From IMG/VR virus record IMGVR_UViG_3300032265_002598, positions 62,001-126,000 of that record: a stretch of 64,000 nucleotides of DNA; one strand, 5' to 3'. The translations under genes and the position numbers were made by a program. The stretch is from a virus. Below the pieces are notes generated by a model. The model made no database searches and was not told where the DNA came from. It saw nothing but the letters and a program-made list of their open reading frames with translations. This document shows positions 21,809 through 41,800 of the stretch, one piece after another (the stretch's first letter is position 1; each line of letters opens with the position of its first letter).

Positions 21809-24800
21809 ATGGCTAAAGGATTTAATTTAACAGCACAAATTAATTTACAGGGACCATCTAATATTAATGTTATTGTATCTAACATTAAAAAACAATTAGG
21901 CACCATTTCAGCTAATGTTAATTTAAAGATAGACCCAGCATCGGCTAAAACAGTTGCCAGCTTAAATTCTTCTTTAAATCAACTTAACTTAACCCTTAAA
22001 GCGACGGCATCTTCTGCAACAAATGCTGCTGATGCAGTTAGGGATTTACTATCAGCTATGAATGGTGTTGCATCTGTAAAGTTGCCCAGTCAAGCAGCAC
22101 AAGTATCTTCATCTCTTAATAATGTAGCAGCTTCTTCTGCTAGCGCCCAAAAAGCACTATCTGCTTCAAGAACAGAGATAGAAGAATTTGGTAATCAAGC
22201 TGGTTTGGCAGTAAGAAGATTTGCTGCATTCAGCACTGTAACATCAGTAATATATGGATTAACAGGAGCAATTAGAGGTGGAATATCCGATTTTATTGAT
22301 TTTGATAAACAATTAACTAGAATCGCTCAGGTTACTGGTGAAAGTAAAGACGGATTAGGTAGACTAAAAGGAACCATAACAGAATTATCTACAGGTCTTG
22401 GTGTTACAGCTAAAGACTTAGCTGGCGTATCAGTTACACTATCTCAGGCTGGTCTTACCGCTAGAGATACTGAAAAAGCATTAAGAGCATTGGCTCTTAG
22501 CGCCCTAACAGCATCATTTGATGATATGAATCAGACGGTAGAAGGTTCTATTGCTTTGATGAGACAGTTCAAGATCGGATCTAATGAATTAGAAGCGGCT
22601 CTAGGATCTATCAATGCTGTATCAGCAAAGTTTGCAGTAGAATCTAGTGATATTATTGCTGCTATTCAGCGTACTGGTGGTGTGTTTGCCGCAGCTAGTA
22701 GAGGAGTTAGTGAAGGTAAAGATGCTCTCAATGAATTTATTGCTGTCTTTACTAGCGTTAGAGCAACAACCAGAGAAAGTGCTGAAACAATTGCTACTGG
22801 TTTAAGAACTATCTTTACCAGACTCCAAAGAGGAGACACTATTGAGGCCCTTAAAGAATATGGTGTTAATCTTACAGATTTAGATGGCAAATTCGTTGGT
22901 GCTTATAAAGCTGTTCAGTTATTAGCTGAAGGTTTAGGACAGATCGACCCTAGAGACCTTAAATTCTCCAAGATTGTTGAAGAGCTTGGTGGTTTTAGAC
23001 AGATTGGTAAGGTTATTCCATTAATCCAAGAGTTCACAACGGCACAACAAGCACTACAAGTTGCTCAAGCTGGACAAGGCTCATTAGCTTCTGATGCTGC
23101 TAAAGGACAATTAGCATTAGCAGTACAAATTAGTAAAACAAAACAAGAATTTTTATCTTTGATTCGTAGTATTGGAGATACTGATAGTTTTCAAAAAATG
23201 GTTACTGTTGGTCTTAGTTTAGCTAGTGCTTTAATTAAGGTAGCCGACGCTGCTAAAGGCATTATCCCATTAATAGGATTATTTGCCGCATTCAAGGGTG
23301 CTTCAGCTATACGACAGTTTAGTGCTGGATTTGGAACTGGCTTTGGTGGAGGAGCAGCTAAACAAAATAATAGACCATTAGGTTTTGCTACCGGTGGTTT
23401 AGTTCCCGGACAAGGTAATTCTGATAGTGTATCAGCAAGACTAACTCCTGGTGAGTTTGTTGTGAGAAAAAGTGCTGTTAAAGCTATTGGCTCAAATAAT
23501 CTACATAGAATGAATAGATATACAACTGGTGGAATTGTTAATCAAATAGGTGGTGTTCCAGGAAAAACAATAGTTCAAAATAGCAAAAATCAATTAGTAG
23601 GATTTAGTCCAAAAGACACCTATTCTATATCAGATGGTTCTGAAAATCTTATTATTAAATATGATAGTAAAAAACAAAATTATAGAGCTAGAGGTAAAAT
23701 ACTTGATCCTTCTTTAGTTAATCGTCTTTTTAAAAACAATTTTCAATCTACTGTGTCTTGGGAAGAAATTGTTGCCAAAAGCTATAATGGTAGATTAGTA
23801 AATGGAAAAAATGATAAATTCCCAATAGATATTATTGCTGGAAATACTTTAATAGATGCTAAATTTAGGCCAGAAGAATCATATAAGCCTATGGATGCTT
23901 TAGGAAAAGCATTAAGTTATCGTCTATATAAAGCATCGGGAGGTAGATACAACTATGAAAATAATGGACAACAAAAACTTAAACTTAATAGTTTAGTTAG
24001 AAATACTCTTACAGAAAATCAAGATAATATTAAAGATTCTGGTCAGATAAAATTTGTTTATCCAGAATTTCAAGATATTCCCACAGACTTACCCGGAATT
24101 AAGTCTAATGTAACAAAACGACAAGCTCAATTATCTAGCAAAAGAACAAGTTCAATGCAGAGGGGGTATGCTCAAAGTTCAATTGACATATTCGGTGGAT
24201 CTACTTTCAGTGGAAATAAAACAGATATTAATACTTTAAGCCCCTACGATAAAAAAAGTAGATTGTTTGGAGGAGGATCAGTTCGTAAATTTGAAAATGC
24301 GGGCTTAGTTACTCCAACAGCAGGAACAGCAGCTAATGCTAGTGAAATATTAAAAGTACTTACTTTGCCAGGAGCAATGGCAGCTAGTGGAGCAAGTGCT
24401 GGGGATATACTGAAAATACTAAAGAAAAAAAATGTACTTACTCCAAAAGAACAAGATATCAAAAATAAAATTTTAGGAGCATATACTAAAAAAACTTCTG
24501 GTATTAGATTAGCAGAGAATGCAGATATACAGAAGGCAATTACCGAAGGTCTTTTATTTGGTGCTGCTGGATTTAAAGGTAGAGCTTTTCCTATCACACC
24601 AAGAATGGATATTCCAGGATTAAAGAATGCAGTTAAGGTTAGAATTACTAGTGGTGTTTTAGATTCAGAGATGTCTAAAAAACTATTAAAGAAAATGACA
24701 GTGGGACTTAATAGTGTCGCTAATAAAACTTCAAGAAATATCATGATTAAAGATATCTTGAAACAAACTGGTCCATTATATGCTGATTTTGATAGAACAT

Positions 24801-27800
24801 TAGCCTTCGGTGCTGATAAAATTTTAGGAGATCCAACAAAGCCAAAATATAGTGAATTCTCTGATAGAAGCAAAGTTGCTGGGGCTTTAAGAACAGCTAA
24901 TCTTAGCATTTTAGGTAAAGCTATTGCTAGTACAGTAAGAAAAACCCCAGAATTTGCTAATAACCTAAATGTAATTTCTGCTAGACCACAATCAACAATG
25001 GATTTAATAGCCGGATGGTTAGCTAGCAAGGGCATTCCAATTCCATTAAATAGAATAAAGGGTGTTGGTGGGCCACAAGTTACTCCAGAACAGATTGCTA
25101 GTTTAAAGGCTGACTTGATGAATCCAGAGGGGGCCTTTGTTGACGATGATCCTAGAAATATTGCAGAATCAGAAAGAAGAGGAATCCGATCATATCTATA
25201 TAAAAAACAAAATGTTGGACCAACAGGAAGAAAAAAGCTTGGAGAAGCAAATGCTAAGGGTTATTTAGCCGAAAGAGTAATTCATGAGCTGGGCGGTCCA
25301 ATAGCTAATAAAGCTGCGACTAACTATGGTATCGACTTCCCAGATGGTTTAAAAAGTGCCGCGAAATACTTTGGTATTCCATCAGATATTCCAACAGACG
25401 CTAAACTTACTTTAAATGGTCCTGCTGAACTGAAGAGCCAGATTGGCAATTATCTCAAGGTGAGAGGATATGCTGGTGGTGGTTCTGTTACAGCAGACTA
25501 TTATAGCTTAGAAAAAAGTAGTGGATTAAAAAGTTTTGAATTTGATAATGCTGTAAAGTTTGCTAAAACTATGAATTATAGCATGTCAGAATTTCAAACA
25601 TATCTAAAGAAACTGCAAGTAGAAAAACAGAATAAATCTGGTGTTAAGACAGATAAAGATGCTCTAAGAAAATCTTTAATATCTGGAACCCCAACTGCTA
25701 CATCTAGACAAATGTCATTAGCAGAATCACTAAAAGGTCCAGCAGATGCTGGCTATAGACCAATATTAACAGAAGCTCAAAGAGTTGCTGCTGCTCGTGC
25801 AGATGTGAGAAATGCAACAAGAGGATTTGCTTCTGGTGGACTTGTTCCCGGAGTTGGTAATCAGGATACTGTTCCTGCTAATCTCAATGTGGGTGACTTT
25901 GTTATTCGTAAAAAAGCAGTATCTACTATTGGTGCTAGTAATCTAAGTTCATTAAATAAAAGAGCTAGTGGCGGAGAAATAAGCAACACCGTCCCTGCAC
26001 TATTAACTCCTGGTGAGTTTGTTATAAATAGAAAAACTGCTAGTAGCATAGGAACAGCAACACTTAATAGATTAAACTATGCAGATAAGGCTTCTAAATT
26101 TAATAATGGTGGCCCAGTAGGAACTGTTCAAGAGTTTGCAATAGGTGGAGCTGTACAAAGACTATTCTTTGGTGGTCCAAGCTTACCAGCTAAACCCTCT
26201 AATCCTACAGAGGGTAATGTTCAAATTTCTACTACTGTTGGTGACCAGCTTAGAGGTATGGTAACCGCTTTAAATGACTTAGGAATATCTTCATCTAAAA
26301 CAGCAGAGATTATTAAAAAGGGTGGACAGATCAGTTATCAAGCTGCTATAAAAGCTTATTCTGCTGATATCCAAAAAATGAGATTAAATGGTGCATCTGC
26401 GATACAAGTTGCAGACGCAGAGAGAAAGCTTAGAGATATTAGAGCAGACGCAGCAAAGAATATCGAAACTAGAAAAAAACTCTCTGGAGTTGGTGCAGAT
26501 CAATTACAGAACATAGATACCTCAGCACAGTTTGAGAAAGAAAGATTAACAAATCAAAAGAGAAATAGTTTAAGAAAAAAAGGAATTACTGGAGAAGCAG
26601 CGGATAAAGTATTAGAAGGTAGTGCTGCTAATATTGAAAAAATAGCATATCAAAGTGCAGCAAAATCACAAGGTGTTGATCTTAAAGGTATGGGTCTAAA
26701 TGGTCAGGATATGCAAAAATATATCCAACGATCAATGATGGATGCAAAAACTTTACAGCAAATGAATGCTCAATATTTACAAACTAGAAAGAAAGATTTA
26801 GAAGCAGTAGGACATAGTGCAGCAGAAGCTCATAAAATAGCTCAAAAAGAAATCAAAGAAAGAGAAGCCATACTTAGAGATGTTGCCAAGTCTCGTGGAA
26901 TGGCAGATCCTACAGGGAAGGGATCGTCTGAAAAACTCAGCCAAAGAATGATGATGGCCGGTTTTATGCTTCCTATGATAGGTAGTGCAGCATCTAGTCT
27001 TATTAATCCTGAAAGTAGTGCAGCGAGTGCTGCAACATCTGCTGGTATTCAAGGAGTAACTAATACAGTTGGTATGGGATTAGGCACAATGAGTATGATA
27101 CCTCTTGAAAAACTAGGTAAATTTGGTGGAATACTAGGTATGGCAGCAGTTGCAGCAGCAGCTGTTGGTCAAGCTATGATAGATGCTCGTAATGCTACTA
27201 TAGAGTTTGAGAAAAAGATGGGTCAGAATAAAGCAGAAAAAGCTTTAGAAGAAGTAGGTAAAACTTTTGAAAAACTTGAAAAAGATATAAAGAATATAAA
27301 TCTTCAGAAAATTATTATAACTAAACTAGCAGAAGCTAGTACAAATATCAAAAGTAGTGTAGAAGCTGATGTTAAAAGAGCTAAAGCATATTGGACTAAT
27401 TTATTAGATGCTTATTTCGGTGGAGCAGGAACATCGCAAGGAAATAGGGAAGCAGCAGAAAGAAGTAAAATTTTAGAAAAAGGAGGAGTAGGTAAATATT
27501 TTCAAGCTACAGGTTTTGGTCAAGCTATGATGGGTAATGTTTCTGGTGCTGATGCAGCAGCTAGTGCGTCAAGATCTGCACAAATAAGAGGTTATGCTCC
27601 AGAAACAGCACAGCAAAATGCCAAAATATTTGCTGATACTGCTAGCCAAATTAATCGTCTTATAGAACAAAAATTTAAAGGCGGAGAAAGCTTAGAAAGT
27701 ATTTTAACAAGCATTACAGATGCTTCACAACCAGAATTTCAACAGTTTGCAGAAGTCTTAGCTAAATCTAATGCTGTTATAGGACAACAAATTTTGTATA

Positions 27801-30800
27801 TAGAGTCTGATATACATCTTAAAGCCGATCAGAAAAAAGCACAAATAGAAGCTATACAAGCTACCTACGCTGAAGCAGAGGCCAGAAGAATCTATGGTGT
27901 TGTTGCTAGACAAAAAGAAATAAAATCTTTAGAACAATCGACTGGCTTATTTAGTCGTAGTCTTGAAAGAATGTATCAGAATATGGAACAGTCCATAAAT
28001 AGGACTATCTTTACTTTAGACAAAATGAGTAAAGAATTAGACTTAGTAGTTTCTTCTTTTAAGGGTGAAGCTACAGTAGGCCAAGGCTCATTAGACAGTA
28101 TTAATATGCTACAGAATCCTCGTGCTTATTCTAAGAATGATAGAGAATCTGCTCGTGATCAAGCTTCTAGTTTCTTTTCTGGTAATAGAGATCTAGTTAA
28201 AGGATTATTAAATGCTGGGGATAATTTAGAACAAGTTATTATGACCACTTTAAGTAATACTTTTAGAGATAATCCAGCAGCTAACAACGAACAAATTGGT
28301 ATTGCTATAGAAAGAAATGTTAAAGATCAACTAGCTAATTTATCTTTACCATCTGATGTTGGAGATAAGCTTGCTGCTGAAGTTCAAAAGGCTTTGGGAG
28401 ATTTAAGAAAAGAAGATAATAGTAAAGTTGATTTTGCTCAGTTAGCAGAAAAAATACCTCAATTATCAAAAGTTATTGAGAGTGCAAAAAGAGCACAAGA
28501 AGTAGCAATAAAAGCATTAGAAAATTGGCAAAATGCATTAAATAACTACTCTACTAGAACTAATCAGCTTGTTGATTTGCAAGTAGACACTAATAATAGA
28601 CTGAGAAAGTCAACTCAAATTTTAGCTGATAGTCAAATAGATTTAGCAAAATCTCTTGGTCAAGAAATAGGAGTATCTGATACTAGAAGAGTAGCAGAAT
28701 CTAAAACAGGACAACTAACTGGTGGATTAATAAGTCCAAAAGATATAACTGATAATATCTTAAATCTTGAAGGAAATAGAAGAGCACAAGAAACTGGATC
28801 TAATATTGCTAGAAATAGAGGAGCTAGTGGAGTAGATGATTTTATGAATATGCAGAAGGGTCTAAAAGACACAAATACTGCATTAAGAGAAAACTATGAA
28901 GCTCTCAAAAACTTAGCAGATAATTCAGATGTAGCATCAGCTGCTTTAGGTAAAATTCAAGAAGCTCAACAAAAAAATCAGGGACGAGTTAGTTTTATCG
29001 AAAAATTAGTCACCAGTACACCAGATGAAATGGATGGTTTAGGTAAAGCACTCGGTAGACTACAAACTAATATGAATGGTCAAGTTAATACTATTCAACG
29101 ATCACAAGGAGCACAGCAGGCTTATTATGAAGCTTTACAAAATGGAGCTTCTGGCTTTGAGGCTATGAGAGCTGCTCAAACTGCATTTGCTAATGAGAGA
29201 AAAGAAACGCTAGGTGCTCTTAATGATATTATGCCTTTCTTAGGAAATAATAAACAAAGCAATAATATTAAAGCTAATGTATTAGAAGGTATGTTAAAAG
29301 AATCTGGTCAGGGTGTTTCTCCAATAATGCAACAGGTATTAACTACCCTCAGAAATCCACAAGCTGATCCAGAAACCCAAGCAGCTATGGCTCAGTATCA
29401 ACAGGCCACCAACTTACAATCAGAAGCTAATAGACAATTAGCTATGTTAAATACTAATTTAGCTGGTCAAATAGCAGACGCTTCTGCAAAAGCTTTGAAA
29501 GACGCATTAACTGGAACAGCACTAACTTTCCAAAATGCAGAATTAACAAATATTCGAGACGATGTGGCTATTATCAAGAATTTAATAGGAGCAGGAACGA
29601 CTACACCGACAACCAAAGCTTCTGGAGGTGTTATATATGCTGCTGCTGGTATGGGTATTGATTTTTCTCCAAAGGGTACTGATACTGTTCCAGCAATGTT
29701 GACCCCCGGAGAATTTGTGGTTAATAGAGCAGCTACCCAGAGAAATCTCCCACTATTACGTTCTATCAATAGTCAAAAACATAGTAGTGGTGGTCCTGTT
29801 AGATATTATGCTGGTGGTGGATATGTTAGTAGTATTATGAAGGATCAAACAGATCTTAGGGGAGAAGGACTTAAAGTAACAGATAAAAACTATTTAGATC
29901 CAGATAGTGAAGATTTTAAAAATCTAGTTAGTGATAAATCTCCAACAGTATTTAGTGGATGGAAAAACTATACTAGAAGTCAGGCATCTGGAGAAGGAAG
30001 AAAAGAAGGAGATAACATATATGCTCCTGCTCGTTGGTGGTATGGAATAGCTGGGATGGGTCCTGGAGAAATTGCTTTTAATAACAGAGGGGCTTTATTA
30101 GCGGGTGCTGCTCCAAAAATTGAAGTAACTCCTGATGGATATTTCCAATATACCGCTACTCAACCAACTACAGTAGATCCTATTAATCAAGTTCAACCTA
30201 TGGGTCTTTTGATGTCTAAGGGTGTTATAGGAACAAGACCTATTCGACAAGATCAAATAATAAAATATAAAGAGAAAATTTTAGCAATTAAAAGAAATAT
30301 GGGGGCTCAGGCTTGGGGAGATGACCCATCAGATTTTGATATAGGATCACTTGAAGATATCAATGGTGTGCAAGGGAAAAGTGGTGGGCCAGGTAAAGAG
30401 TACGATCCTAATATCAGTATTGGTAAAAATATTGGTATAATTATTTCTCCCAATAAAAATAGGCCAATAATTACTCCAGTATTTCCTTCTGAAGAAACTA
30501 CAGATATACAAAAAGTTTGGTTGGAAATGACTACAGCTGCTAGTCTTGTTCCAACAGGATATTATGGAACTATAGTTTCTCCACACGCAGTTGAGACAGG
30601 AGGGACGTTAAGAACAGACAACAGCGAAACAGTTCCGGGTGCTAATAATAGTAACGCTGGTCAAGATATTAGAGATAAGGGATTAAAAATTGATTTACTT
30701 AGTACCCCAAGAACTAGCGTTGTTCCAAACGCAGCTATGGCTACAGTAGAAGCTAATTGGGTTAGAGCAAAAGCAGATATTGATGCTAAAATTAATTCTC

Positions 30801-33800
30801 AGAGAATAAATACAACATTTTATAAGGATACTTTAGCTTCTGTTGAAGCTGATAATTTTAAATTTGTAAGAACAAAGGTTAACAATAGACTAGATCAATT
30901 ACAAAAACAACTACAAAATCTATACGAAAACCGTAGTTTGGTAGAAGATATTGGCCCATCTAAAGAGTTTCTTGATTTAGAGCCTTTAAATGCTCCAGAT
31001 CCTATTGTAGATTTGCATGTTTTATCAGCTACTAAAAATAATGAATTACGACAAAAAATAAAAGAACTTCAAGCTATTTCTCCTACTATTCGTGAAGATA
31101 AAGGTTGGAGAGGATTAAATGTTGGTACTATAGGAGCAGCATTTGGTGAAAAATGGATGGACGGTAATGCTATAGATATTCAAGATGAAATGGCAGCTGG
31201 ACCCTTAAAAGAATTTCCTTGGATTGCTAATCTTGATCCAACCATTCTTTTAGCTAATTTAGCTGCTGATATAAGAAGGAAACAAGAAGACTTAGCTAGT
31301 GGTAAAGAGTATGGATTTAATGTTAGTCAAATTACTCATTCTGTTAATGAAAAATTACCAGCACCACTAGATCAATATTCTCTAAAGCATACCGAACAAT
31401 ATTTAAAATATACTGGTCCTCTTTGGAATCCTGATGATCCTAATGCTGATCCTTCTGGTTTCTTGACAGACAATCCTCTTAAAGATTACTTTGTTGTTAA
31501 ACCCTCTCCAGCTAAAGAAGACATGTTTCAATATGCCGGAGAGGCATTTAAAAATCAAAGAAATTTTGCTAGTAAGAATAAACCATTTGATCTTTCTGAT
31601 TTAATCTCTAAATTACAGCCAGCACAAACTCAAACTATAGCAGATTATATTAAGAATCCTACTGACCCACAATTAACCACTGATCTTAAGAATATTGCTG
31701 TTGGAGTTAATCCTAGTTTAATAACAGCTAAAACTGTCGGTGTTAGTAAACCAATTGGATTAGAAGGTTTTGATTTATTTTCTCAAGAAGATAATACTCC
31801 AATTAATCTTAATATTGGTAGTTATTTAACTCATGCAATTGAAGAGTTAGCACAAGAACAAAAAAGAAAAGCTTTAGGAGTAACTGGAGAAATAGATAAT
31901 GCTAAGGGGCTTAGTATTGGTATTGCAGATACTGATAAACAAAAGGCTTCTGTTAATCTAACTCGTGGAGCATTAAATGTTTTTGGTAGATCAAAGATTC
32001 CGGGATTTGCTAATGGATGGTTAGCCAGATATATTGGTAGAATGCCAAGCATATTAGGTATGGCTAAAAATAATAATATTGTAAAATCTGGTACTTCATA
32101 TATAGCCAATGTTTTCAATGAGGCTGGTGCTTATGCTAGTAAATTATTTCAAATGGCTCGTAATCCTCAACAATATAATGCTCTCAAAGAAGCATATGTG
32201 ATGATCTCTGGGGCTACCAGCGCTTTTAATGGATTATCCAATGGAGATACAAGGTTCTTAAAACTACTACAAGACCAAGGAGACTATTCAGCTCTATTTA
32301 GATCTTTAGGAGCAAGTTCTAGTTTCCAAAAAGCAGCAAATAATGAACTAACAGCAGACTATCAAGCTCAATTGGGTCAGGAACTTAAGGGATCAAAGAT
32401 TAGAAAAGTCGGTGCTGATGGTTCACTAAGTTACGCTGATTTCAATAATTCTGTACCAAAAACTTATCAAGACTTAGTAGATACAGCACTTAATCCATAT
32501 AATGAATTTACTAGTCCTTCTATTCGTAAGGGATTGATTAATACATTAATTGCTGATATTTCTAATGGTAAAGATAGTTTAGGAATGCCATTCTTTGATA
32601 AAAGAACTTTGGACTATATTAATAATAATCTTAGAACTCTACAGTCTTGGTACGGTGGTGATGGTAATGCATGGCCCGGACAAGACTCTTTTTATGACGA
32701 AACTTTAGATGCTAAGATCAGAACTGATAGTGTTATAAATGCTCTAAATAATAATGCTGCTGGTGGATTATTAGATCAGGCTAATTTAGCTAATACACAA
32801 TTGGGTGTTGCTACTAAATTTGGTAACTTGCCAAGTGCTCAATGGTTTGAGGCCAGAAAGATTGCACAACCTCAATTTAGAGCTACTGGCGGCATGATCT
32901 ATGCTTCTGAAGGCCAGATGATTAATTTTCAGCCCCGTGGCACAGATACCGTTCCAGCAATGTTAACTCCCGGCGAATTTGTTGTCAATAGACAAGCCAC
33001 CCAAAAGAACCTCCCATTGCTACAATCTATTAATAATGGTAATCATTATTCTAAGGGTGGTCCTGTTAATTATCTATCAGATGGTGGAGAAGCTGCCCCA
33101 TTTAATGCTATAACTGGCAATAGAGTCAAAGAAAAACCAGAAGATAAAGATTCTCCACTAACTAAATATAAAATCAGCTCAGTACTTTATCCCTATGTTA
33201 GTTATCCATTTGATGAGAGAGGATATTCTCAGGATTTACCTCCAGAACTAAAAATGCTTAATACTTTAGGGGGTTATGGCGGTGGAATAGGATATACAAA
33301 TATTTTCTTTGATACTGATTTAGCTAAAAGTTTGCGGTCTATCAGAAGTAATAAAAATAATCAGTATGCAACTAGTACAGCAGTAAATAACAGTTCTGCT
33401 GAGTTTATTAAACAGTTTAAATTTAGAGATATTGATAATAATGATAAATTAACTGGCTTTGATTTTTCTAGCTTTTTATCTGATAGTGATAATATTTTAG
33501 GTTTAATAGATCCAGATTTAGGTGATGGATTTGCTCCTAAAAATCTAATAGCATGGAAAAAAGCAGAAGATAGAGTCAAGGCCAGATCATCTGCTAAGGC
33601 TGTTATTGCTAATTTAACACCAGACTTAGAAAATATTAAAGCTGTTATACAAGATCAACATCCAGTAGATGGTTCAAATAATACTAATGATCGTAATTCT
33701 TATGGGGCTCAAGGTCAAGCTGCAATAGCAATGAGGATGTTGATTTACAATGTAATAGAAACATGGAAAAAAGATTCTATAGAAAGTATAGAGGGTCTTG

Positions 33801-36800
33801 GATCAGATAATGCTCAAGTCAATTCTCAACAAGTAGCAGAAGATATCTATAAAGGTAATAAAACGCCTTTGACGAAAAAATTAGTAGATTGGTTAGATAA
33901 AAAAGAAGGAGCTAAAACTTTAGTTGAAAAAGCTAAAGAATTATTTCCTGGTAGATCCCCTGATGATGCTCCAAATGACAAATTTTTAGCATCAGATTTT
34001 GCTCAAATAGGCGATTTATTTAGAAATGCTCCTAAGTTTATTGAGGCACTATATAAAGGTGAAACTCCATTAGCTAAGGGAAAGAAACATATTTTTTCTC
34101 TATTATCTCAAGGAGCCAGAGTTAAAGGCATTGAGGCTTTAATTAAAGCAAGAACATTATTTTCCGGTTCTGACCAATCAGTACTTGGTGAAAGAACAGT
34201 TTATGCTGATCCTTCAAGAACTCCAGAGAATACTATTGGAAGAGACAAATTAGTATATAGAAACAATCCAATGGGATCGGTATTTGGAGCTGATAGAGAT
34301 CAATCTGGTTTAACTGCCGCAGAAAAAGCTAAAATAGAAGAAAGACTTAGAGAACATGATTGGGCAGGATCATTAGATAATACGGGTTCCTCTCCATCTC
34401 ACGCCATGAGAGATCCTAGGTTTACAACTACTGTTGGTAATGATCTTAATTGGGATAAAGATGGTGATGGAAGAGTATCTAAAGAAGAGTGGTTAGAAAA
34501 ATTTAGTGGCATGGATAATGGTGGAAAAAGATTATTTAGTAAATATGATCTTAATAATAATGGATTTTTAGAGCTTAAAGAATTTACTAAATTTTATAAT
34601 GAGTCCAAGGGTACTCTTGGTCCAGAAAACGATGCGGCAGCTGTAGATTTGGGAAGGTCTATTAATGAAAGACACGCAAATAGAGTAAAACCAGTTGATG
34701 CTTTGAAGGCAATGTTTGAAGATAAAAAAATAAGAGAAGCATTAACAACGAATGCTAAATATTCTATTACAGAGACTTTTATACCTAAAAATCTAAAGAA
34801 TATATCTCAAAATGAAATTGATGAACCAAAAATTCTTAAAGAATTACAGGATAAATATAGCGAATTATATCCTAAGAGAACCACAATACCTGATATATTA
34901 AACAATGAATTACCTTTACCAAAATATATAGATGATAAATTTGCAGATTTATTTGCTGATAGGGCTGAATTTGCTCCCTTAGGTGTTTTAAATAATTATC
35001 ATATAGAAGACCTTCATAAAGTTATTAGAGAACCATTTCATTTTACCAATAAAAATACTTCACGTAATTTACTATTAGAAAAGAATTTTGATTTCAATAA
35101 AGAGCCGTGGAAAGAACTGGTTAAACCATACGAAAAATCTCCCTATCAATTACCGTTTGGCTTTCAATCAGCGACCCAGTTACTCAAATCTAATGCTGAC
35201 CATTGGTTTGACACAACAATATTTCCAGAAAATAATTGGAACAATCCTAGAAGTTGGAGAGATGATAAATATAGTATTGGAGTCATCCCATACGACCCCA
35301 AATCTGTACAACAAGGTCAATGGTCAATACCTCCCGGTCAACAAGTCGGTAACTCTGTTCCACCAGGGCAACAAGCAGGAACACCAGCTAGTCAAGCTGG
35401 AACAGTACCTCCCGGTCAACCACCAACCGGGACATCGGGATCAACAGTTCCTCCTAATAAACCAGTAGAAAACAAGTTAGTTGGCTCTACTATTAGAGAC
35501 AAATACTATGATGAATTAACATATAAAGAATATTTAGCTTCTTTAATCAAAGCTGAAAAAGCTCCAGAAGCTCCAGATAAAAAGTTATTCACAACACCAG
35601 CTTTCTATACTATCGGCCCAGATGGTCAAAAAGTTCGTGATACAGCTTATGACACTAGAGAAACACAAAGAAGAATTGGCGGAGGAAAGCCAATTGATAA
35701 AGATGATATTAATCATGCCATGGTGTCAACATTAGCTAATGATATTTATAATGATTACAATAATGTTCAATCTCATTTAGGAACATTTAAGAATCCAAGA
35801 AGTGATGCTAATGTTAAAGACCAATCTTTATCTGGAATAGAATTAGGCTATGGTAATTTAGTAAATAACTTAACAAAACTTAGCACACTAACTAATCTTT
35901 CCAAGATGAAAAATAAACCCATCATGGTCGGAGAAGCTAAAAATATTCCATTTAGTATTGATGATGTTGTTGATAGACTAAGAGTAATGAGAGAGATATA
36001 TAATAATGAAATCCTATCTAAGAAGAAAGAAAAACTTGGTAAAATTAATGATTCTATTCTCGACGATTTCTTCTCGTCTACTGCAAAAATCACTGAAACC
36101 AACAATGTTCCAACTCCTGCTGATGGCAAGCCATTTAGTGGAAAAGAAGTAAGAACAAATAGAGGTATTCCAGGGCCTATAAGAATGCCTGTTAGAGGTA
36201 TGACTGGAGTAGAAACTCAATATAAAAATTCTTATAATCACTATAGACGTATTTTAGGAGAATATAATTATCATCAGATGGTGGGTAGAGGCAAAAGATA
36301 TGCTCAAGGACATAAAACAACTACTAGAGTAGCTAAAACACTATCTTCTGGTGGAATGGTATATGCTAGTAATGGAATGTTAATTCCTTATGCTCCAAAA
36401 GGAACTGATACTGTACCAGCCATGTTAACTCCAGGAGAATTTGTTGTTAACCGAGCAGCTACTCAAGCTAATTTGCCATTATTACAGAGTATTAATAAAA
36501 ATAAGGGTGGAGAAATCAGTTATTATGCTACTGGTGGAATGGCTGCTCCTGATACTGCTAGTATTTCATACGACATTAGACAACAAGAAGCTAATACTCT
36601 TAATAATCAAAAAACCTCTATGAATAGCAGTAAAACATTGAATGCTATAATAGATACACAAAAAACAACCCAAAATATACAAAGTTCCACACAACAATTT
36701 ATTCCAAGTGTTAATAGTAGCTTTTCTTCTTTGTTTGTAGAATCAAAAAATATTTCAAAAGGAGTTCAAGGAGTAAGAAGAGATATTACAAATGTTGATT

Positions 36801-38848
36801 CTTCAATTTTAAAATCCAAAGATGAAACAAATCAGAATATAACTAGTCTTGCAAAATACAATTCTTCTAGTGCTAACTCTGTTGGAAATAGCATTGGAGC
36901 AATTGGTCAGCAGGTTGTAATGAAGTCAAATGATAATATTAAACACGTTTCTAAAGGTGGTACAGTATATGCTGCTGAAGGTCAATTAATTAATTTCCAG
37001 CCTCATGGCACAGACACTATTCCTGCGATGCTAACTCCTGGAGAATTTGTTGTTAACGCTAGAGCAACACAACAGAATCTTCAATTATTACAGGCTATTA
37101 ATAAAAATAAAGGAGGAATGGTTTATGCTCAAGATGGTATATTAGTACCTAATTCTAGAGAGCTTCAACAATATGGGGATATAAAACAGGACACATTTGA
37201 CCCATCAAAAGCAACAACTCCTAGTTCTGATAAGCGAAAAGCTAAAAGAAGTGAGTATTTACAGAAACAAATAGAGAGAGAAGAAGCAAAAGAATTTAAT
37301 AAATTAGGAATTAACTATAATAATAGTACTACCATAGAAGATATACTAAAAGCTTTGAAAAAACAAAGAAATTACCAAGAAAAAAACGATTACTATCTAC
37401 GTCAATTTATTTCGGATGAATCATTAGGATTAAGACTAAAAAGATTTCCAAAAATTAGCAAAGCAATTGAAACTATAAAAGAACAATCGACTATAAATCC
37501 ATTCGATCCTCCAACAACAGATCCTCTTAATCCTGCCAAACCATCTACAGTTGATGAGCCAAAAGTATATTATAAAGGTGTCGAAACAAAAGCAAATGGA
37601 GGAATGATCTACGCTGCTGAAGGAAAATTAATCAATTTCCAGCCTCGTGGTACTGATACTGTTCCCGCTATGTTAACTCCTGGAGAGTTTGTTGTTAATC
37701 GTCAAGCCACCCAACAAAATCTCTCTTTACTAAAAACTATTAATAGTGGTAATTATAAGGAATCTTCTAAAGGATACTCTCATGGGGGAGTAATATATCT
37801 GGAAAAGGGTGCTCAAGTTCCCCCAGAGTTGCGGGGACTTGAAAATAGTGCTGTTGGTCAAATAATATTAAAAGTCAAAGCTCAAGCTGAAAGTTATCCT
37901 AATCTTTTTGAGGCTCTTGATGATAAAGCTATAAATCAAAATCTTAAAAAAGATGAATTAGTGACAAAGTACGAAGATGCTTGGAAAACTATGGATCCTA
38001 GTGCTAGATATTCATCGGCCCAACAACAATTTAAAACAGATAAAGCTAGAGTAGATTATTTAGAAGAAATATATACTAACAGTATGAATGCTTATGATAG
38101 TATTTTGAAAAGTACTCTATCTCCAAGAGCTAACTATATTAAAGTAAAAGATAAAAGTATAATAGAAATACTGCTTGGACAAAAAGTAGCTAAATTAGAA
38201 CACGATGTAATACATGAAACTTGGGTTGAATTATTCAAAAAGCATCCAGAATTTCGTAGTGGTCCTATTAATGCTGGAGCAACCCAGGCCGCTGGAACAG
38301 GTACTGTAGCAGGACAAACAACGGTAGCAGCAGCAGGAAAACAATATGGTGGTATGATTTATGCTAATCATGGTATGATGATTCCTTATATTCCAAGAGG
38401 TAGTGATACTGTTCCTGCTATGTTAACACCGGGCGAATTTGTTGTTAATAGAGCATCAACCCAGCAAAATCTACCTTTATTACAAGCTATTAACAATAAT
38501 CGATATAGTCGTGGCGGCAGTGTTAAGTATTTAGCTCATGGTGCAATGGCTGATGAGTCTGGTGCTGGTGGTGGTGTATCTAATGGTGGAGGCTCATCCT
38601 CACCCAATATGGATGGATTAAGCCAGTTTACGACAAAATTTGAAGAATTTATTGGCCAATTAAAAGCAATAAACTTACCACCAATTATTAATGTTATGGG
38701 TAATCATAAGGTTGAGGTAGTATTTAATGGAGCAGAAGTATTGAAACAACTCAGTGAAACAGCCATCAGTGATATGGTTGTTGCAGAAGTTGGTAGAGCT
38801 ATGGGTACTCTTAGTGATCAAACAGAAGGCGCTTTAGGGAGAAAATAA
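21809..38848 (+). CDS. Tail tape measure protein, 5,679 residues, with embedded enzyme-like domains
   Basis: Residues about 130-510 match the TP901-type tape measure core (LSTGLGVTAKDLAGVSVTLS, RESAETIATGLRTIFTRLQR, KIVEELGGFRQIGKVIPLI). Beyond it lie unusual parts: a PD-(D/E)XK-like segment (about 580-760), a HAD-phosphatase-like segment (about 980-1135), long helical stretches, hydrophobic segments at about 1714-1788 that could enter a membrane, a degenerate EF-hand at 3874, an EF-hand pair at 4216-4258, and a Pro/Gln/Gly-rich linker (about 4500-4555). Nine copies of a TPGEFVVN-type motif punctuate it. The protein would fix tail length inside the tube and leave through it into the cell. At about 0.15 nm per residue it predicts a tail near 0.85 micrometre if all of it is extended. 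No peptidoglycan hydrolase motif was recognised. It is preceded by a terminator, and its TAATG overlaps the next start. Confidence 0.9.
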   Translation: MAKGFNLTAQINLQGPSNINVIVSNIKKQLGTISANVNLKIDPASAKTVASLNSSLNQLNLTLKATASSATNAADAVRDLLSAMNGVASVKLPSQAAQVSSSLNNVAASSASAQKALSASRTEIEEFGNQAGLAVRRFAAFSTVTSVIYGLTGAIRGGISDFIDFDKQLTRIAQVTGESKDGLGRLKGTITELSTGLGVTAKDLAGVSVTLSQAGLTARDTEKALRALALSALTASFDDMNQTVEGSIALMRQFKIGSNELEAALGSINAVSAKFAVESSDIIAAIQRTGGVFAAASRGVSEGKDALNEFIAVFTSVRATTRESAETIATGLRTIFTRLQRGDTIEALKEYGVNLTDLDGKFVGAYKAVQLLAEGLGQIDPRDLKFSKIVEELGGFRQIGKVIPLIQEFTTAQQALQVAQAGQGSLASDAAKGQLALAVQISKTKQEFLSLIRSIGDTDSFQKMVTVGLSLASALIKVADAAKGIIPLIGLFAAFKGASAIRQFSAGFGTGFGGGAAKQNNRPLGFATGGLVPGQGNSDSVSARLTPGEFVVRKSAVKAIGSNNLHRMNRYTTGGIVNQIGGVPGKTIVQNSKNQLVGFSPKDTYSISDGSENLIIKYDSKKQNYRARGKILDPSLVNRLFKNNFQSTVSWEEIVAKSYNGRLVNGKNDKFPIDIIAGNTLIDAKFRPEESYKPMDALGKALSYRLYKASGGRYNYENNGQQKLKLNSLVRNTLTENQDNIKDSGQIKFVYPEFQDIPTDLPGIKSNVTKRQAQLSSKRTSSMQRGYAQSSIDIFGGSTFSGNKTDINTLSPYDKKSRLFGGGSVRKFENAGLVTPTAGTAANASEILKVLTLPGAMAASGASAGDILKILKKKNVLTPKEQDIKNKILGAYTKKTSGIRLAENADIQKAITEGLLFGAAGFKGRAFPITPRMDIPGLKNAVKVRITSGVLDSEMSKKLLKKMTVGLNSVANKTSRNIMIKDILKQTGPLYADFDRTLAFGADKILGDPTKPKYSEFSDRSKVAGALRTANLSILGKAIASTVRKTPEFANNLNVISARPQSTMDLIAGWLASKGIPIPLNRIKGVGGPQVTPEQIASLKADLMNPEGAFVDDDPRNIAESERRGIRSYLYKKQNVGPTGRKKLGEANAKGYLAERVIHELGGPIANKAATNYGIDFPDGLKSAAKYFGIPSDIPTDAKLTLNGPAELKSQIGNYLKVRGYAGGGSVTADYYSLEKSSGLKSFEFDNAVKFAKTMNYSMSEFQTYLKKLQVEKQNKSGVKTDKDALRKSLISGTPTATSRQMSLAESLKGPADAGYRPILTEAQRVAAARADVRNATRGFASGGLVPGVGNQDTVPANLNVGDFVIRKKAVSTIGASNLSSLNKRASGGEISNTVPALLTPGEFVINRKTASSIGTATLNRLNYADKASKFNNGGPVGTVQEFAIGGAVQRLFFGGPSLPAKPSNPTEGNVQISTTVGDQLRGMVTALNDLGISSSKTAEIIKKGGQISYQAAIKAYSADIQKMRLNGASAIQVADAERKLRDIRADAAKNIETRKKLSGVGADQLQNIDTSAQFEKERLTNQKRNSLRKKGITGEAADKVLEGSAANIEKIAYQSAAKSQGVDLKGMGLNGQDMQKYIQRSMMDAKTLQQMNAQYLQTRKKDLEAVGHSAAEAHKIAQKEIKEREAILRDVAKSRGMADPTGKGSSEKLSQRMMMAGFMLPMIGSAASSLINPESSAASAATSAGIQGVTNTVGMGLGTMSMIPLEKLGKFGGILGMAAVAAAAVGQAMIDARNATIEFEKKMGQNKAEKALEEVGKTFEKLEKDIKNINLQKIIITKLAEASTNIKSSVEADVKRAKAYWTNLLDAYFGGAGTSQGNREAAERSKILEKGGVGKYFQATGFGQAMMGNVSGADAAASASRSAQIRGYAPETAQQNAKIFADTASQINRLIEQKFKGGESLESILTSITDASQPEFQQFAEVLAKSNAVIGQQILYIESDIHLKADQKKAQIEAIQATYAEAEARRIYGVVARQKEIKSLEQSTGLFSRSLERMYQNMEQSINRTIFTLDKMSKELDLVVSSFKGEATVGQGSLDSINMLQNPRAYSKNDRESARDQASSFFSGNRDLVKGLLNAGDNLEQVIMTTLSNTFRDNPAANNEQIGIAIERNVKDQLANLSLPSDVGDKLAAEVQKALGDLRKEDNSKVDFAQLAEKIPQLSKVIESAKRAQEVAIKALENWQNALNNYSTRTNQLVDLQVDTNNRLRKSTQILADSQIDLAKSLGQEIGVSDTRRVAESKTGQLTGGLISPKDITDNILNLEGNRRAQETGSNIARNRGASGVDDFMNMQKGLKDTNTALRENYEALKNLADNSDVASAALGKIQEAQQKNQGRVSFIEKLVTSTPDEMDGLGKALGRLQTNMNGQVNTIQRSQGAQQAYYEALQNGASGFEAMRAAQTAFANERKETLGALNDIMPFLGNNKQSNNIKANVLEGMLKESGQGVSPIMQQVLTTLRNPQADPETQAAMAQYQQATNLQSEANRQLAMLNTNLAGQIADASAKALKDALTGTALTFQNAELTNIRDDVAIIKNLIGAGTTTPTTKASGGVIYAAAGMGIDFSPKGTDTVPAMLTPGEFVVNRAATQRNLPLLRSINSQKHSSGGPVRYYAGGGYVSSIMKDQTDLRGEGLKVTDKNYLDPDSEDFKNLVSDKSPTVFSGWKNYTRSQASGEGRKEGDNIYAPARWWYGIAGMGPGEIAFNNRGALLAGAAPKIEVTPDGYFQYTATQPTTVDPINQVQPMGLLMSKGVIGTRPIRQDQIIKYKEKILAIKRNMGAQAWGDDPSDFDIGSLEDINGVQGKSGGPGKEYDPNISIGKNIGIIISPNKNRPIITPVFPSEETTDIQKVWLEMTTAASLVPTGYYGTIVSPHAVETGGTLRTDNSETVPGANNSNAGQDIRDKGLKIDLLSTPRTSVVPNAAMATVEANWVRAKADIDAKINSQRINTTFYKDTLASVEADNFKFVRTKVNNRLDQLQKQLQNLYENRSLVEDIGPSKEFLDLEPLNAPDPIVDLHVLSATKNNELRQKIKELQAISPTIREDKGWRGLNVGTIGAAFGEKWMDGNAIDIQDEMAAGPLKEFPWIANLDPTILLANLAADIRRKQEDLASGKEYGFNVSQITHSVNEKLPAPLDQYSLKHTEQYLKYTGPLWNPDDPNADPSGFLTDNPLKDYFVVKPSPAKEDMFQYAGEAFKNQRNFASKNKPFDLSDLISKLQPAQTQTIADYIKNPTDPQLTTDLKNIAVGVNPSLITAKTVGVSKPIGLEGFDLFSQEDNTPINLNIGSYLTHAIEELAQEQKRKALGVTGEIDNAKGLSIGIADTDKQKASVNLTRGALNVFGRSKIPGFANGWLARYIGRMPSILGMAKNNNIVKSGTSYIANVFNEAGAYASKLFQMARNPQQYNALKEAYVMISGATSAFNGLSNGDTRFLKLLQDQGDYSALFRSLGASSSFQKAANNELTADYQAQLGQELKGSKIRKVGADGSLSYADFNNSVPKTYQDLVDTALNPYNEFTSPSIRKGLINTLIADISNGKDSLGMPFFDKRTLDYINNNLRTLQSWYGGDGNAWPGQDSFYDETLDAKIRTDSVINALNNNAAGGLLDQANLANTQLGVATKFGNLPSAQWFEARKIAQPQFRATGGMIYASEGQMINFQPRGTDTVPAMLTPGEFVVNRQATQKNLPLLQSINNGNHYSKGGPVNYLSDGGEAAPFNAITGNRVKEKPEDKDSPLTKYKISSVLYPYVSYPFDERGYSQDLPPELKMLNTLGGYGGGIGYTNIFFDTDLAKSLRSIRSNKNNQYATSTAVNNSSAEFIKQFKFRDIDNNDKLTGFDFSSFLSDSDNILGLIDPDLGDGFAPKNLIAWKKAEDRVKARSSAKAVIANLTPDLENIKAVIQDQHPVDGSNNTNDRNSYGAQGQAAIAMRMLIYNVIETWKKDSIESIEGLGSDNAQVNSQQVAEDIYKGNKTPLTKKLVDWLDKKEGAKTLVEKAKELFPGRSPDDAPNDKFLASDFAQIGDLFRNAPKFIEALYKGETPLAKGKKHIFSLLSQGARVKGIEALIKARTLFSGSDQSVLGERTVYADPSRTPENTIGRDKLVYRNNPMGSVFGADRDQSGLTAAEKAKIEERLREHDWAGSLDNTGSSPSHAMRDPRFTTTVGNDLNWDKDGDGRVSKEEWLEKFSGMDNGGKRLFSKYDLNNNGFLELKEFTKFYNESKGTLGPENDAAAVDLGRSINERHANRVKPVDALKAMFEDKKIREALTTNAKYSITETFIPKNLKNISQNEIDEPKILKELQDKYSELYPKRTTIPDILNNELPLPKYIDDKFADLFADRAEFAPLGVLNNYHIEDLHKVIREPFHFTNKNTSRNLLLEKNFDFNKEPWKELVKPYEKSPYQLPFGFQSATQLLKSNADHWFDTTIFPENNWNNPRSWRDDKYSIGVIPYDPKSVQQGQWSIPPGQQVGNSVPPGQQAGTPASQAGTVPPGQPPTGTSGSTVPPNKPVENKLVGSTIRDKYYDELTYKEYLASLIKAEKAPEAPDKKLFTTPAFYTIGPDGQKVRDTAYDTRETQRRIGGGKPIDKDDINHAMVSTLANDIYNDYNNVQSHLGTFKNPRSDANVKDQSLSGIELGYGNLVNNLTKLSTLTNLSKMKNKPIMVGEAKNIPFSIDDVVDRLRVMREIYNNEILSKKKEKLGKINDSILDDFFSSTAKITETNNVPTPADGKPFSGKEVRTNRGIPGPIRMPVRGMTGVETQYKNSYNHYRRILGEYNYHQMVGRGKRYAQGHKTTTRVAKTLSSGGMVYASNGMLIPYAPKGTDTVPAMLTPGEFVVNRAATQANLPLLQSINKNKGGEISYYATGGMAAPDTASISYDIRQQEANTLNNQKTSMNSSKTLNAIIDTQKTTQNIQSSTQQFIPSVNSSFSSLFVESKNISKGVQGVRRDITNVDSSILKSKDETNQNITSLAKYNSSSANSVGNSIGAIGQQVVMKSNDNIKHVSKGGTVYAAEGQLINFQPHGTDTIPAMLTPGEFVVNARATQQNLQLLQAINKNKGGMVYAQDGILVPNSRELQQYGDIKQDTFDPSKATTPSSDKRKAKRSEYLQKQIEREEAKEFNKLGINYNNSTTIEDILKALKKQRNYQEKNDYYLRQFISDESLGLRLKRFPKISKAIETIKEQSTINPFDPPTTDPLNPAKPSTVDEPKVYYKGVETKANGGMIYAAEGKLINFQPRGTDTVPAMLTPGEFVVNRQATQQNLSLLKTINSGNYKESSKGYSHGGVIYLEKGAQVPPELRGLENSAVGQIILKVKAQAESYPNLFEALDDKAINQNLKKDELVTKYEDAWKTMDPSARYSSAQQQFKTDKARVDYLEEIYTNSMNAYDSILKSTLSPRANYIKVKDKSIIEILLGQKVAKLEHDVIHETWVELFKKHPEFRSGPINAGATQAAGTGTVAGQTTVAAAGKQYGGMIYANHGMMIPYIPRGSDTVPAMLTPGEFVVNRASTQQNLPLLQAINNNRYSRGGSVKYLAHGAMADESGAGGGVSNGGGSSSPNMDGLSQFTTKFEEFIGQLKAINLPPIINVMGNHKVEVVFNGAEVLKQLSETAISDMVVAEVGRAMGTLSDQTEGALGRK
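23540..24080 (+). other. PD-(D/E)XK nuclease-like segment inside the tape measure
   Basis: After the first motif copy the sequence turns into a mixed alpha/beta domain. It reads E652/E653 (SWEEIVAKSYNG), then P672-I-D674, IIAGNTLI, then D683-A-K685, and a following helix (MDALGKALSYRLY). This matches the order E...PD...(D/E)xK of PD-(D/E)XK nuclease folds. Activity is not demonstrated, and D-x-K in place of E-x-K is an accepted variant. Confidence is moderate because the motif is short. Confidence 0.5.
24740..25215 (+). other. HAD-superfamily phosphatase-like segment inside the tape measure
   Basis: All four HAD motifs appear in order: motif I D993-F-D995-R-T997 (YADFDRTLAFGAD), motif II S1057 in VISARP, a candidate motif III K1084 in RIKGVGG, and motif IV D1112-D1113-D1114 (GAFVDDDPRN). 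The helix between II and III (STMDLIAGWLASKGIPIP) is also typical of nucleotidase or polynucleotide phosphatase relatives. The key catalytic residues are present, so activity is plausible. Confidence 0.7.
33428..33463 (+). other. Degenerate EF-hand-like loop in the tape measure
   Basis: Residues 3874-3885 read DIDNNDKLTGFD. Acidic or amide residues occupy loop positions 1, 3, 5, 6 and 12, with Leu at position 8. It departs from the canonical loop at position 6 (Asp for Gly) and position 12 (Asp for Glu), so calcium binding is uncertain. Confidence 0.4.
34454..34582 (+). other. EF-hand pair in the tape measure
   Basis: Loop 1 (residues 4216-4227, DKDGDGRVSKEE) is canonical, with D1, D3, D5, G6, V8 and E12. 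Loop 2 (4247-4258, DLNNNGFLELKE) has D1, N3, N5, G6, L8 and E12. The 19 residues between the loops contain a helix (WLEKFSGM, then KRLFSKY), as in paired EF-hands. Calcium binding is strongly suggested by the family. Confidence 0.75.
35310..35470 (+). other. Pro/Gln/Gly-rich linker in the tape measure
   Basis: The segment encodes repeated PPGQQ and PPGQPP units with GTPASQAG and GTSGSTVPP. This is a low-complexity, probably disordered spacer between helical segments. The same bases keep an open frame on another register (35088-35468), which is a by-product of base composition. Confidence 0.8.
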
Positions 38849-41800
38849 TGGCTGACACAACAATTTCGGGTACACTAAATGTTGGTTCTGGTACAACTCC
38901 GGATATAAAACTATCAGATACCGCTGGTATCTCTAGCTCTTTTAATATTAACAAATTAGATATTGACTTTAGTATTAAAGGAACGGGTAATGGTTTGATG
39001 TATTTCGATGCCTCAACAGGAAGAGTTGGTATCGGAACCGGTGTGCCTGACGCTGTTTTGCACGTTGTTGCTCCATGCGCCAAAGACGGATTGATTATTG
39101 AAAGTGTAACCAATTGTCCAACTGGCGTAACTCTATTGTTAGTTCATAACCCCCAAACTGCTCCAGTATCAGGTAGTTATCCTGCTATAATTAATCTTGC
39201 TGGTCGTGATACTAATTATAATAAAATAGCATATGGACAAATTGTGTCTAAAATACTAGATCCTATCACAGGATATACTAGTGGAGAAATTCTTTTTACA
39301 GTTGATAATCGTGGTACTAATACTCCAGTATTTAAAGCTAATGTAAAAAATATAGTATTGGGAGGTAATAATAGCGTATCTGGTTATTCATATACTGTTA
39401 TTGGCGGTAGTAATGCTGTAACAGGCGTAGGTATCACTAGTATTGGAGCTTACAATAGTGGACTATCTAATAGTGGTCTAATTATTGGAAATGCCAATAT
39501 TTTTAATGGCACTAAAATTGTTGCCTTAGTAAATAATTCTAAATTTGTTGGAGCCAATAATATTGCTATGGGAGATACTGTAGCTATTACTGGTTTATCT
39601 AATATTTTTATAGGCAACTCAAATCTCCTTAGCGGATCAAATAATATTTTGATGGGAGATAACAATTCTTTTAATGGAGATATGAGTATTGGTTTAACTC
39701 AATTATCTTCAAATACCGGGTCATCAGGCATTATTTTTGGAGCTTATGCTACTAATAGTGGAAATAATAATATATACATAGGTAATCTTAATAATTTGAT
39801 TGGTAATTCTAATAATGTTGTTGGCTCCCTAGTTTCTGTTACAGGAGACAGCAATAATATTTATGGCAGTTCTGATTCTATCTTAGGATCTAAATTAATT
39901 TCTATAGGATCAAATCAGTTTTTAAATACTGTAACTAGTGGTATTTTTATTGGTAATGATATGTCATTATCTAATTCTAATAAACTTTTATTTTTAGGTA
40001 TGGGCAATACCAATACAAAAGATGGTCTAGCAAAAAGCATTTTGATTGGTATCAACAATAATCTAAGTAATGGTACCCCAGATCAAATTTTATTGATTGG
40101 TCAATCAAATATTATACAAAACATTACAGGTTCTGTTGTACTAGGTAATACTAATAATGTTAGCGGGTCTGTTTCTAATAATTTAGTTATGGGTAATTCC
40201 AATGCTGTATCATTAATTAGCACAAATAATTTAGTTTTAGGAATATTAAACAATCAAACTGGTATTTATATTGATTCTGCTGGTAGTATAACAGGATCAG
40301 GTAAAAGACCAGCTGGAACTGTTATTAATTCTATAGTTGCTGGTATAAATAATGTAGTATATGCTGGAAATAGTCATATTGTAGTTGGTAATAAAAATGC
40401 TATATCGGGTTCTAGTAGTAATACTTTAGGATCATATAATAATCTTCAAAATAGTACAAATGCTTATAATATTGGTAATTCTAACTTTTTAGTAGGTAGT
40501 CAACTAGCTACAGTTGGTAGTAAAATTAATTTGATTGGTCAAGAATCAGTGGTATTCAACACATCCAATCAACAAATGAATGTTTTTGGTAGTGGTAACA
40601 TTGTTTTAGGATACAACCAAGTTGTTAATAATGGTATTGCTGTAGGTACTTCTAATAGATTAGATGGCTTAAATAATATTGTTTATGGTCGTAATAATAC
40701 ACTGGGATATACCAGAAATACATGCTTTATGACTGATGCTGGTGGCACTACTATTACTATTCCAACTAAAGGAATGTTAGCCCAGTATTTACAGGGAGAT
40801 AAAATATTAGTTTCTTTTCAGAATCCCCCATCAACATCTAACACTTTTGTAAGAACTATTTCGGCAATTGTAGAAGATACAATTGAGCCAAAAACCTATA
40901 TTACTCTTGATATTCCAGTGATTCTTGATTATGGAAATGGTTATTATTCTATAAATAATGCATTTGATGATAATAATAGTCCTTCAAATGTTGTTAGTGG
41001 GCTTATCATGCCATACCAAAGAATGGGTGGTGCTGGTGGAGCAGAACTTAATCCTGTATATGGATCTAATAATATTATTGTTGGATCTAATAATAGATAT
41101 CCTTTTACTAGTGGTTTAATTTTAGGCTATAATAACTATATGTCTGGTGTGAGAAATATAGCTATTGGATATGGTTTGACCGGAGTTGCAGATGATACTC
41201 TATATTTGGGTACTAATAATAGTAATAAGATGATTCTTGATAATTATAAGATTGTTTTTAATTCCGGTAAACTACAACAGAATCTTATTGTTAAGTCTGC
41301 TTCAGATTCTACTAGTGTTCTCAATGCTAATCTTAATAATAATAGAGTTGGCATTAATACAGATTCTCCAACATCTGATTTTTCTGTTAGTGGACTTTTA
41401 ACCACTACAGATTTTAAATTAGGATTTTCTTCTCCAGATGCTTATGTATTAACCAGTAATACTAATGGAGTTGGAACATGGCAGCTACCAGTTAGATTAT
41501 CTGGTACTAATGGAGGCATGTTATTTAAGATTACTGATAAAGGAGCAAGTGGTATTGCAGAAATTGGATATGATCCCAATAATAAACAATTAGGATTTAA
41601 TTTAGGTGGTAATAATGAACTCTATATTAATAGTACTGGTTTATTTCTAAATGATCAGGCTTTAGCTTATAAAGTAAGAATTCGCGGTAGTGGTGGTGTA
41701 GATTTTGCAAGAATATTATTTGATACTGACTATCCTAATCATAGAATTAATTTTTATAATATCGGCGGTAATTCTGGTAATTTCAATAATTTTACTTTAA

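Follow-up and report, generated by a model that had tools for sequence, protein, structure and literature searches.

This study concerns a 64,000-nucleotide stretch of viral DNA (positions 62,001–126,000 of the 201-kb IMG/VR record IMGVR_UViG_3300032265_002598; hereafter the window), in which a giant open reading frame (ORF) encodes a tape measure protein (TMP) with a HAD phosphatase-fold domain embedded in mid-protein. Tail-fibre-type genes lie upstream of the ORF; its N-terminus matches the PHROG family of tail length tape measure proteins (6e-27) and, at residues 189–382, Pfam PF10145 PhageMin_Tail (E = 1.2e-23), and this N-domain is combined with hydrophobic segments, great length and a position in the tail gene region, which bears out the TMP identity given to the ORF in the original prediction for this DNA. 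The HAD domain sits in a cargo region that follows the TMP N-domain and precedes the hydrophobic segments, and the principal features are the following.

21809–38848, + strand: giant TMP of 5,679 amino acids, a single uninterrupted ORF
22109–23254, + strand: conserved TMP N-domain, residues 101–482 (custom hidden Markov model, E = 1e-119 or better in 21 of 21 related ORFs)
23393–23506, + strand: first copy of the 'GGLVPGxGxxDxVxAxLTPGEFVV' repeat, downstream of which the cargo starts
24284–24769, + strand: N-terminal flank of the HAD module, residues 826–987, mostly helical, conserved in relatives and kept in the HAD-less relative L061
24770–25198, + strand: HAD phosphatase-fold domain, residues 988–1130 (AlphaFold2, Foldseek, hhalign, NCBIfam)
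24785–24799, + strand: HAD motif I, DFDRT, with predicted nucleophile D993 and acid/base D995 (D, F, D and T invariant in 20 of 20 modules)
24977–24985, + strand: HAD motif II, S-A-R, with S1057 (S or T at 1057 in 20 of 20; A and R invariant)
25106–25108, + strand: HAD motif III lysine, K1100 (invariant in 20 of 20)
25142–25147, + strand: HAD motif IV, D1112–D1113, predicted Mg2+ ligands (invariant in 20 of 20)
25244–25486, + strand: domain after the HAD domain (G..DFPxGL...PTDxKxT), which may be a second PD-(D/E)XK-like fold (by motif; predicted local distance difference test score, pLDDT, about 41–80 there)
26948–27190, + strand: hydrophobic, membrane-segment-like stretches, residues 1714–1794, typical of tape measures (hydropathy scan)

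A divergent HAD domain inside the tape measure protein

Relatives of the HAD module were gathered by scanning viral contigs repeatedly, each time with an enlarged alignment, which gave 20 distinct modules including that of the window, to which the 19 relatives are 32–85% identical; the last scan added one locus, so that the set is nearly saturated as far as this method reaches. In the 20-row alignment of these modules (279 columns), D993, D995, T997, K1100, D1112, D1113 and N1117 are invariant, and position 1057, occupied by S in eight rows and T in 12, is S or T throughout, as HAD motif II requires. Invariant columns number 28 of 279, and the probability that five named catalytic columns should all fall among them is about 7e-6, a figure to be taken as a rough guide, the columns being non-independent. 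The residues on which the original prediction relied (D993, D995, T997, S1057, K1084 and D1112–D1114) are found exactly where it placed them in the translation of 21809–38848. The conservation of D993, D995, T997, S1057, D1112 and D1113 upholds that catalytic set except for its lysine: K1084 is K in only 12 of the 20 rows and T, V, E or R in the others, and it was rejected as the motif III lysine in favour of K1100. Position 1114 is D in 14 rows, N in five and S in one.

Structure prediction followed by a Foldseek search, the check that had been proposed with the prediction, returned a HAD fold and not an all-helical TMP region. The AlphaFold2 model calculated on the 20-row alignment has a pLDDT of 78 and a predicted template modelling score of 0.73, with the HAD core mostly at 90 or above, and motifs I, II and IV are located at the ends of strands, residue 1057 at that of strand E106–110 (model numbering); a run on three near-identical rows gave a pLDDT of 36 and was not counted against the fold. 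Against the PDB, Foldseek retrieved HAD proteins including the class B acid phosphatase AphA, phosphoserine phosphatase and the T4 Pnkp 3'-phosphatase (TMt 0.62–0.64), the top-ranked matches being drimenol synthases, which we take to carry a HAD domain. Against a viral structure library the matches were mainly PNKP phosphatase domains (TMt up to 0.70). PNKP-type structures are among the best matches, with AphA and phosphoserine phosphatase scoring similarly. Profile comparison by hhalign with standalone phage PNKP-type HADs, a set that includes L062 (PF25109, 3.3e-10), brought motifs I, II and IV into register (E = 2.3e-5 for a single comparison; probability 76%), and NCBIfam HAD-SF-IA-v3 matches five of the 20 members (best 6e-4). 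Sequence searches of the PDB gave only a chance-level match to the HAD protein 2i6x (E = 1.1) with the single sequence and nothing useful with profiles.

The codon comparisons show purifying selection on the HAD domain: over nine pairs, its ratio of nonsynonymous to synonymous divergence (pN/pS) is 0.13–0.57, comparable to or stricter than that of the TMP N-domain in most. On the predicted fold, the profile comparison, the invariant catalytic residues, this selection and the recurrence of the arrangement in 20 distinct TMP ORFs, the segment is a divergent but real HAD domain within a TMP, as had been predicted, and its catalytic activity, judged from residues and model, is very likely. Its fold, as modelled, appears nearest to those of the PNKP-type 3'-phosphatases and the class B acid phosphatases.

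As side observations, the BFVD matches A0A6J5R419 and A0A6J7WLI9 are HAD-like folds in proteins named prohead protease and XkdF, a hint of HADs fused to other virion proteins, and an antisense ORF at 24244–25035 was set aside as mechanical.

Exchangeable modules in related tape measure proteins

The fusion of the HAD domain to the TMP is uninterrupted in the 20 distinct modules, whose contigs, numbering more than 20, come from different metagenomes and which are accompanied by different flanking modules. Two scans of bacterial and archaeal genomes gave no relative of the module, and a tblastn search of isolate phages with the HAD region gave no match even at an E-value of 10; in the collections scanned, the module thus appears to be virus-borne.

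The architecture of 21 related ORFs was tabulated with profiles built from the same sequences, so that a seed necessarily matches its own profile. The TMP N-domain is present in all 21 ORFs, which range from about 3,500 to 7,737 amino acids, and is followed by the first 'LTPGEFVV'-type repeat and then by variable modules. The HAD domain is present in 20 of the 21, a count biased by the use of HAD-containing queries to gather the ORFs, and is followed by the conserved C-terminal domain, which is the most strongly conserved part of the module. L061 keeps both flanks of the module and lacks the HAD domain, which shows that the latter is separable. The other modules recognized in the window and its relatives are as follows.

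23744–23929, + strand: PD-(D/E)XK nuclease-like module of the window TMP, residues 646–707, E...FPID...IDAKF (custom profile, 8e-22, the window sequence being among the seeds of the profile)
34454–34600, + strand: EF-hand pair of the window TMP, residues 4216–4264 (PF13202, 2e-6, above cut-off)
PD-(D/E)XK-like module (custom profile): the window, L021, L023, L025, L026, L030, L031, L035, L054, L056, L058 and L061
SNase module (custom profile; Pfam SNase 6.5e-6 in L037, over cut-off): L037 and L063
P-loop and HxGH nucleotidyltransferase modules (custom profiles): L033, L034, L035, L057, L058, L061 and L063
ADP-ribosyltransferase (ART) module (custom profile): L028, L033, L034, L054 (twice) and L057

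Pfam ADPrib_exo_Tox scores over its cut-off in L028 (8.4e-7), L034 (2.9e-5), L057 (1e-10) and L054 (7.6e-7), as does HIGH_NTase1_ass (PF16581) in L058 (1.7e-7). The PD-(D/E)XK and P-loop assignments, which are by motif, are likely. In the PD-(D/E)XK-like segment at residues 646–707, E, P, D and K are invariant in an eight-row alignment and (D/E)xK is present in all rows, and neither a Pfam match nor a PDB profile match to the segment was found; that position is occupied in relatives by SNase or unrelated segments. The HAD domain is therefore the only firmly identified enzyme of the window TMP, the PD-(D/E)XK-like segment being recognized by its motif. Across the 21 ORFs, several unrelated enzyme domains occur per polypeptide and vary between relatives, and their order also varies, the P-loop/nucleotidyltransferase pair lying after the HAD domain in L057 and before it in L063. 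Synonymous divergence in the HAD domain falls clearly below that in the TMP N-domain in several pairs (for example 0.37 versus 1.69 in L054/L056), a pattern that would fit recombinational exchange of the cargo region among phages.

Several further observations concern these proteins and their surroundings. The repeat element 'GTDTVPAMLTPGEFVVNRxATQ' punctuates the window TMP as if dividing modules, with further copies at about residues 1356, 1396, 2628, 3716, 4870, 5072, 5286 and 5536, and the EF-hand pair is unusual for a TMP. The related TMP of L034 (record G003) occupies an open frame of 7,737 amino acids, longer than any other TMP that we know of. In L056, kinase-like motifs (GIDLHNDNIGYR...AIIDG) lie upstream of the HAD module in the same ORF, where Pfam gave no match, and in L061 a zincin-like LAHETGHLAD (HExxH) motif downstream of the module, also in the same ORF, may belong to a self-processing peptidase. 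The nearest isolate TMP N-domains are those of SPbeta-like and Rhodococcus phages, at 22–27% identity, and no match to the tail sheath family was found in eight related records. Elsewhere in the window, a 1,456-amino-acid ORF at 38848–43218 contains a beta-roll, ice-binding-like stretch scoring just below the Pfam cut-off (28.8 versus 30 bits), and giant ORFs of 3,628, 1,828 and 2,612 amino acids (284–11170, 44863–50349 and 50356–58194, respectively) have no PHROG match.

Proposed delivery of the cargo and alternative readings

We propose, with a probability of about 0.6, that the TMP serves both as the tail ruler and as the carrier of exchangeable effector enzymes, with a catalytically competent HAD phosphatase delivered to the host; its activity, its delivery, its substrate and the benefit to the phage are the parts that we infer. 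The TMP would exit through the tail at genome injection, and the cargo domains would fold or be released on the host side. There, D993 would attack a phosphomonoester, yielding an aspartyl-phosphate; D995 would serve as the acid/base, S1057 and K1100 would hold the phosphate, and D1112 and D1113 would bind Mg2+. The likeliest substrates would be nucleic-acid 3' ends or nucleotides, and the benefit may be the repair of host-inflicted nucleic-acid damage or the removal of defence nucleotides; the PNKP-like fold and the nuclease neighbours would favour nucleic-acid ends. In other phages, TMPs are known to exit the tail and to function at the inner membrane while the genome enters, as with lambda gpH (PMC13190303; summarized in PMC13277306), and this biology, together with the neighbouring ART, SNase and nucleotidyltransferase modules, suggests delivery at infection, a possibility that the original prediction had cautiously raised.

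Several points weigh against this proposal. The whole-chain TM-scores are modest (TMq 0.3–0.4), in part owing to the presence of the helical flank and the C-terminal domain in the query. Neither the HAD segment alone nor any of the 20 members is matched by a Pfam HAD model, which marks the family as divergent and leaves the substrate class weakly constrained. The HAD_PNKP model PF25109 has no match in genome G000 or seven relatives at a threshold of E = 0.001, nor in the 20 modules, so that the domain may work like a PNKP-type 3'-phosphatase but is not assigned to that family, and no RNA or DNA ligase partner was recognized in the TMP segments scanned. A folded HAD domain is about as wide as the lumen of the tail tube, which means that unfolded threading, proteolytic release or another location would be needed. 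Finally, the phages are uncultivated, and the packaging and delivery of the cargo are predictions from their genes.

Among the alternatives, the one that survives best, although we consider it unlikely, is that the HAD domain acts together with the P-loop and HxGH nucleotidyltransferase modules in remodelling NAD+ or nucleotide pools against NAD-depleting or nucleotide-signalling defences, and not in end repair. The P-loop and nucleotidyltransferase neighbours of some relatives would suit such remodelling: all three modules share one ORF in L033, L034, L035, L057, L058 and L063, PF16581 scores over its cut-off in L058 and ARTs occur in several relatives. However, most HAD-bearing TMPs, including that of the window, have no recognized P-loop and nucleotidyltransferase modules, and the best-matching folds include 3'-phosphatases and acid phosphatases.

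It is also improbable, in our view, that the HAD domain is active in the producing cell, the giant polyprotein being cut in late infection so that the cargo acts there, in nucleotide salvage or end processing, and nothing is delivered. The narrow tube would favour removal of the fold before assembly, and the zincin-like motif of L061 is of a type thought, according to the survey of polyvalent proteins (PMC5512222), to process such proteins; nevertheless, the cargo is flanked by the TMP N-domain on one side and the hydrophobic segments on the other, so that its excision would split the ruler, and no peptidase is recognized by Pfam in the window TMP.

A purely structural use, in which an old HAD fold is kept as a plug, a length spacer or a baseplate contact without catalysis, accords with the tolerance of TMPs for inserts, the related ORFs ranging from about 3,500 to 7,700 amino acids, but is distinctly improbable: the catalytic residues are invariant down to 32% identity, while the neighbouring positions 1084 and 1114 vary, and the absence of the domain from L061 indicates that the tail does not strictly need it. 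The erroneous fusion of a HAD gene to a TMP during assembly or annotation, which the purely metagenomic origin of the contigs and the lack of an isolate match in the phage collection might suggest, is refuted in practice by the recurrence of the same uninterrupted fusion, which is shared by 20 distinct modules from more than 20 contigs.

Delivery of a HAD phosphatase by the TMP may be part of a wider arrangement in this uncultivated phage group, the longest contigs of which are about 190–240 kb. The TMP would here be a polymorphic multi-effector delivery chassis, in which a near-constant HAD domain and exchangeable nuclease, ART, nucleotidyltransferase and P-loop modules travel inside the tail tube and exert their effects in the host before the genome or together with it, an extension that we hold tentatively, at a little short of even odds.

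Known systems and significance

TMPs with a cell-wall hydrolase include that of mycobacteriophage TM4, and SPbeta YomI is annotated as a transglycosylase. These likewise embed an infection-aiding enzyme domain in a TMP, and in sequence the TMP of SPbeta is one of the closest from isolates; they act on peptidoglycan at entry, however, whereas the modules described here are predicted to be cytosolic-type enzymes for phosphates, nucleic acids or proteins. The T4 Pnkp 3'-phosphatase and the phage PNKP-type HADs (PF25109) resemble the window domain in fold, motif order and DxDxT...S/T...K...DD residues, but they are stand-alone or kinase-fused soluble enzymes, and PF25109 has no match to the TMP domain. 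T4 Alt and the other head-packaged ARTs (surveyed in PMC9503650) are virion-delivered effector enzymes, and ARTs also occur in the TMPs of the relatives; the known ones are head-packaged or MuF/portal fusions and not tail-ruler fusions, and that survey makes no mention of tape measures.

The closest known concept is that of the polyvalent proteins of phages and conjugative elements (Iyer et al. 2017, PMC5512222), described in passages of that paper as very large proteins that combine ARTs, nucleases, nucleotidyltransferases, kinases and peptidases and are predicted to be injected with the DNA. Like the TMPs of this group, they join unrelated effector enzymes in one polypeptide, with domains that vary between relatives; here, in contrast, the backbone is a TMP, whereas that paper makes no mention of tape measures, and its section list and passages contain no HAD phosphatase module. 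The closest known carriers are the TMP-related effectors of contractile injection systems (CIS), Tme (PMC11126660) and Sle1 (PMC13277306), which are remote tape-measure homologues whose functional domains vary; they are loaded into a tail-like tube and then ejected, and the C-terminal domain of Tme is an endonuclease (PMC11126660). They are effectors of bacterial nanomachines with a C-terminal functional domain, whereas the proteins reported here, which are deduced from metagenomic DNA, are apparently complete phage TMPs with several internal enzyme modules as well as the HAD domain. No prior report of such an enzyme-bearing TMP with a HAD domain was found in the open-access papers searched.

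In conclusion, if the proposed reading is true, these phages would supply the missing counterpart of these systems in the form of apparently complete TMPs that bear effector enzymes in arrays. Under the wider arrangement, phage tails would be true injectors of protein effectors, like CIS and the type VI secretion system, and the length of a TMP would not simply set that of the tail; the related TMPs, at about 3,500–7,737 amino acids, offer a means of testing whether the tail lengthens along with the TMP on insertion of cargo. They would also constitute a new pool of early-acting counter-defence enzymes, including the HAD phosphatase found in 20 of the 21 ORFs (gathered with HAD-containing queries).

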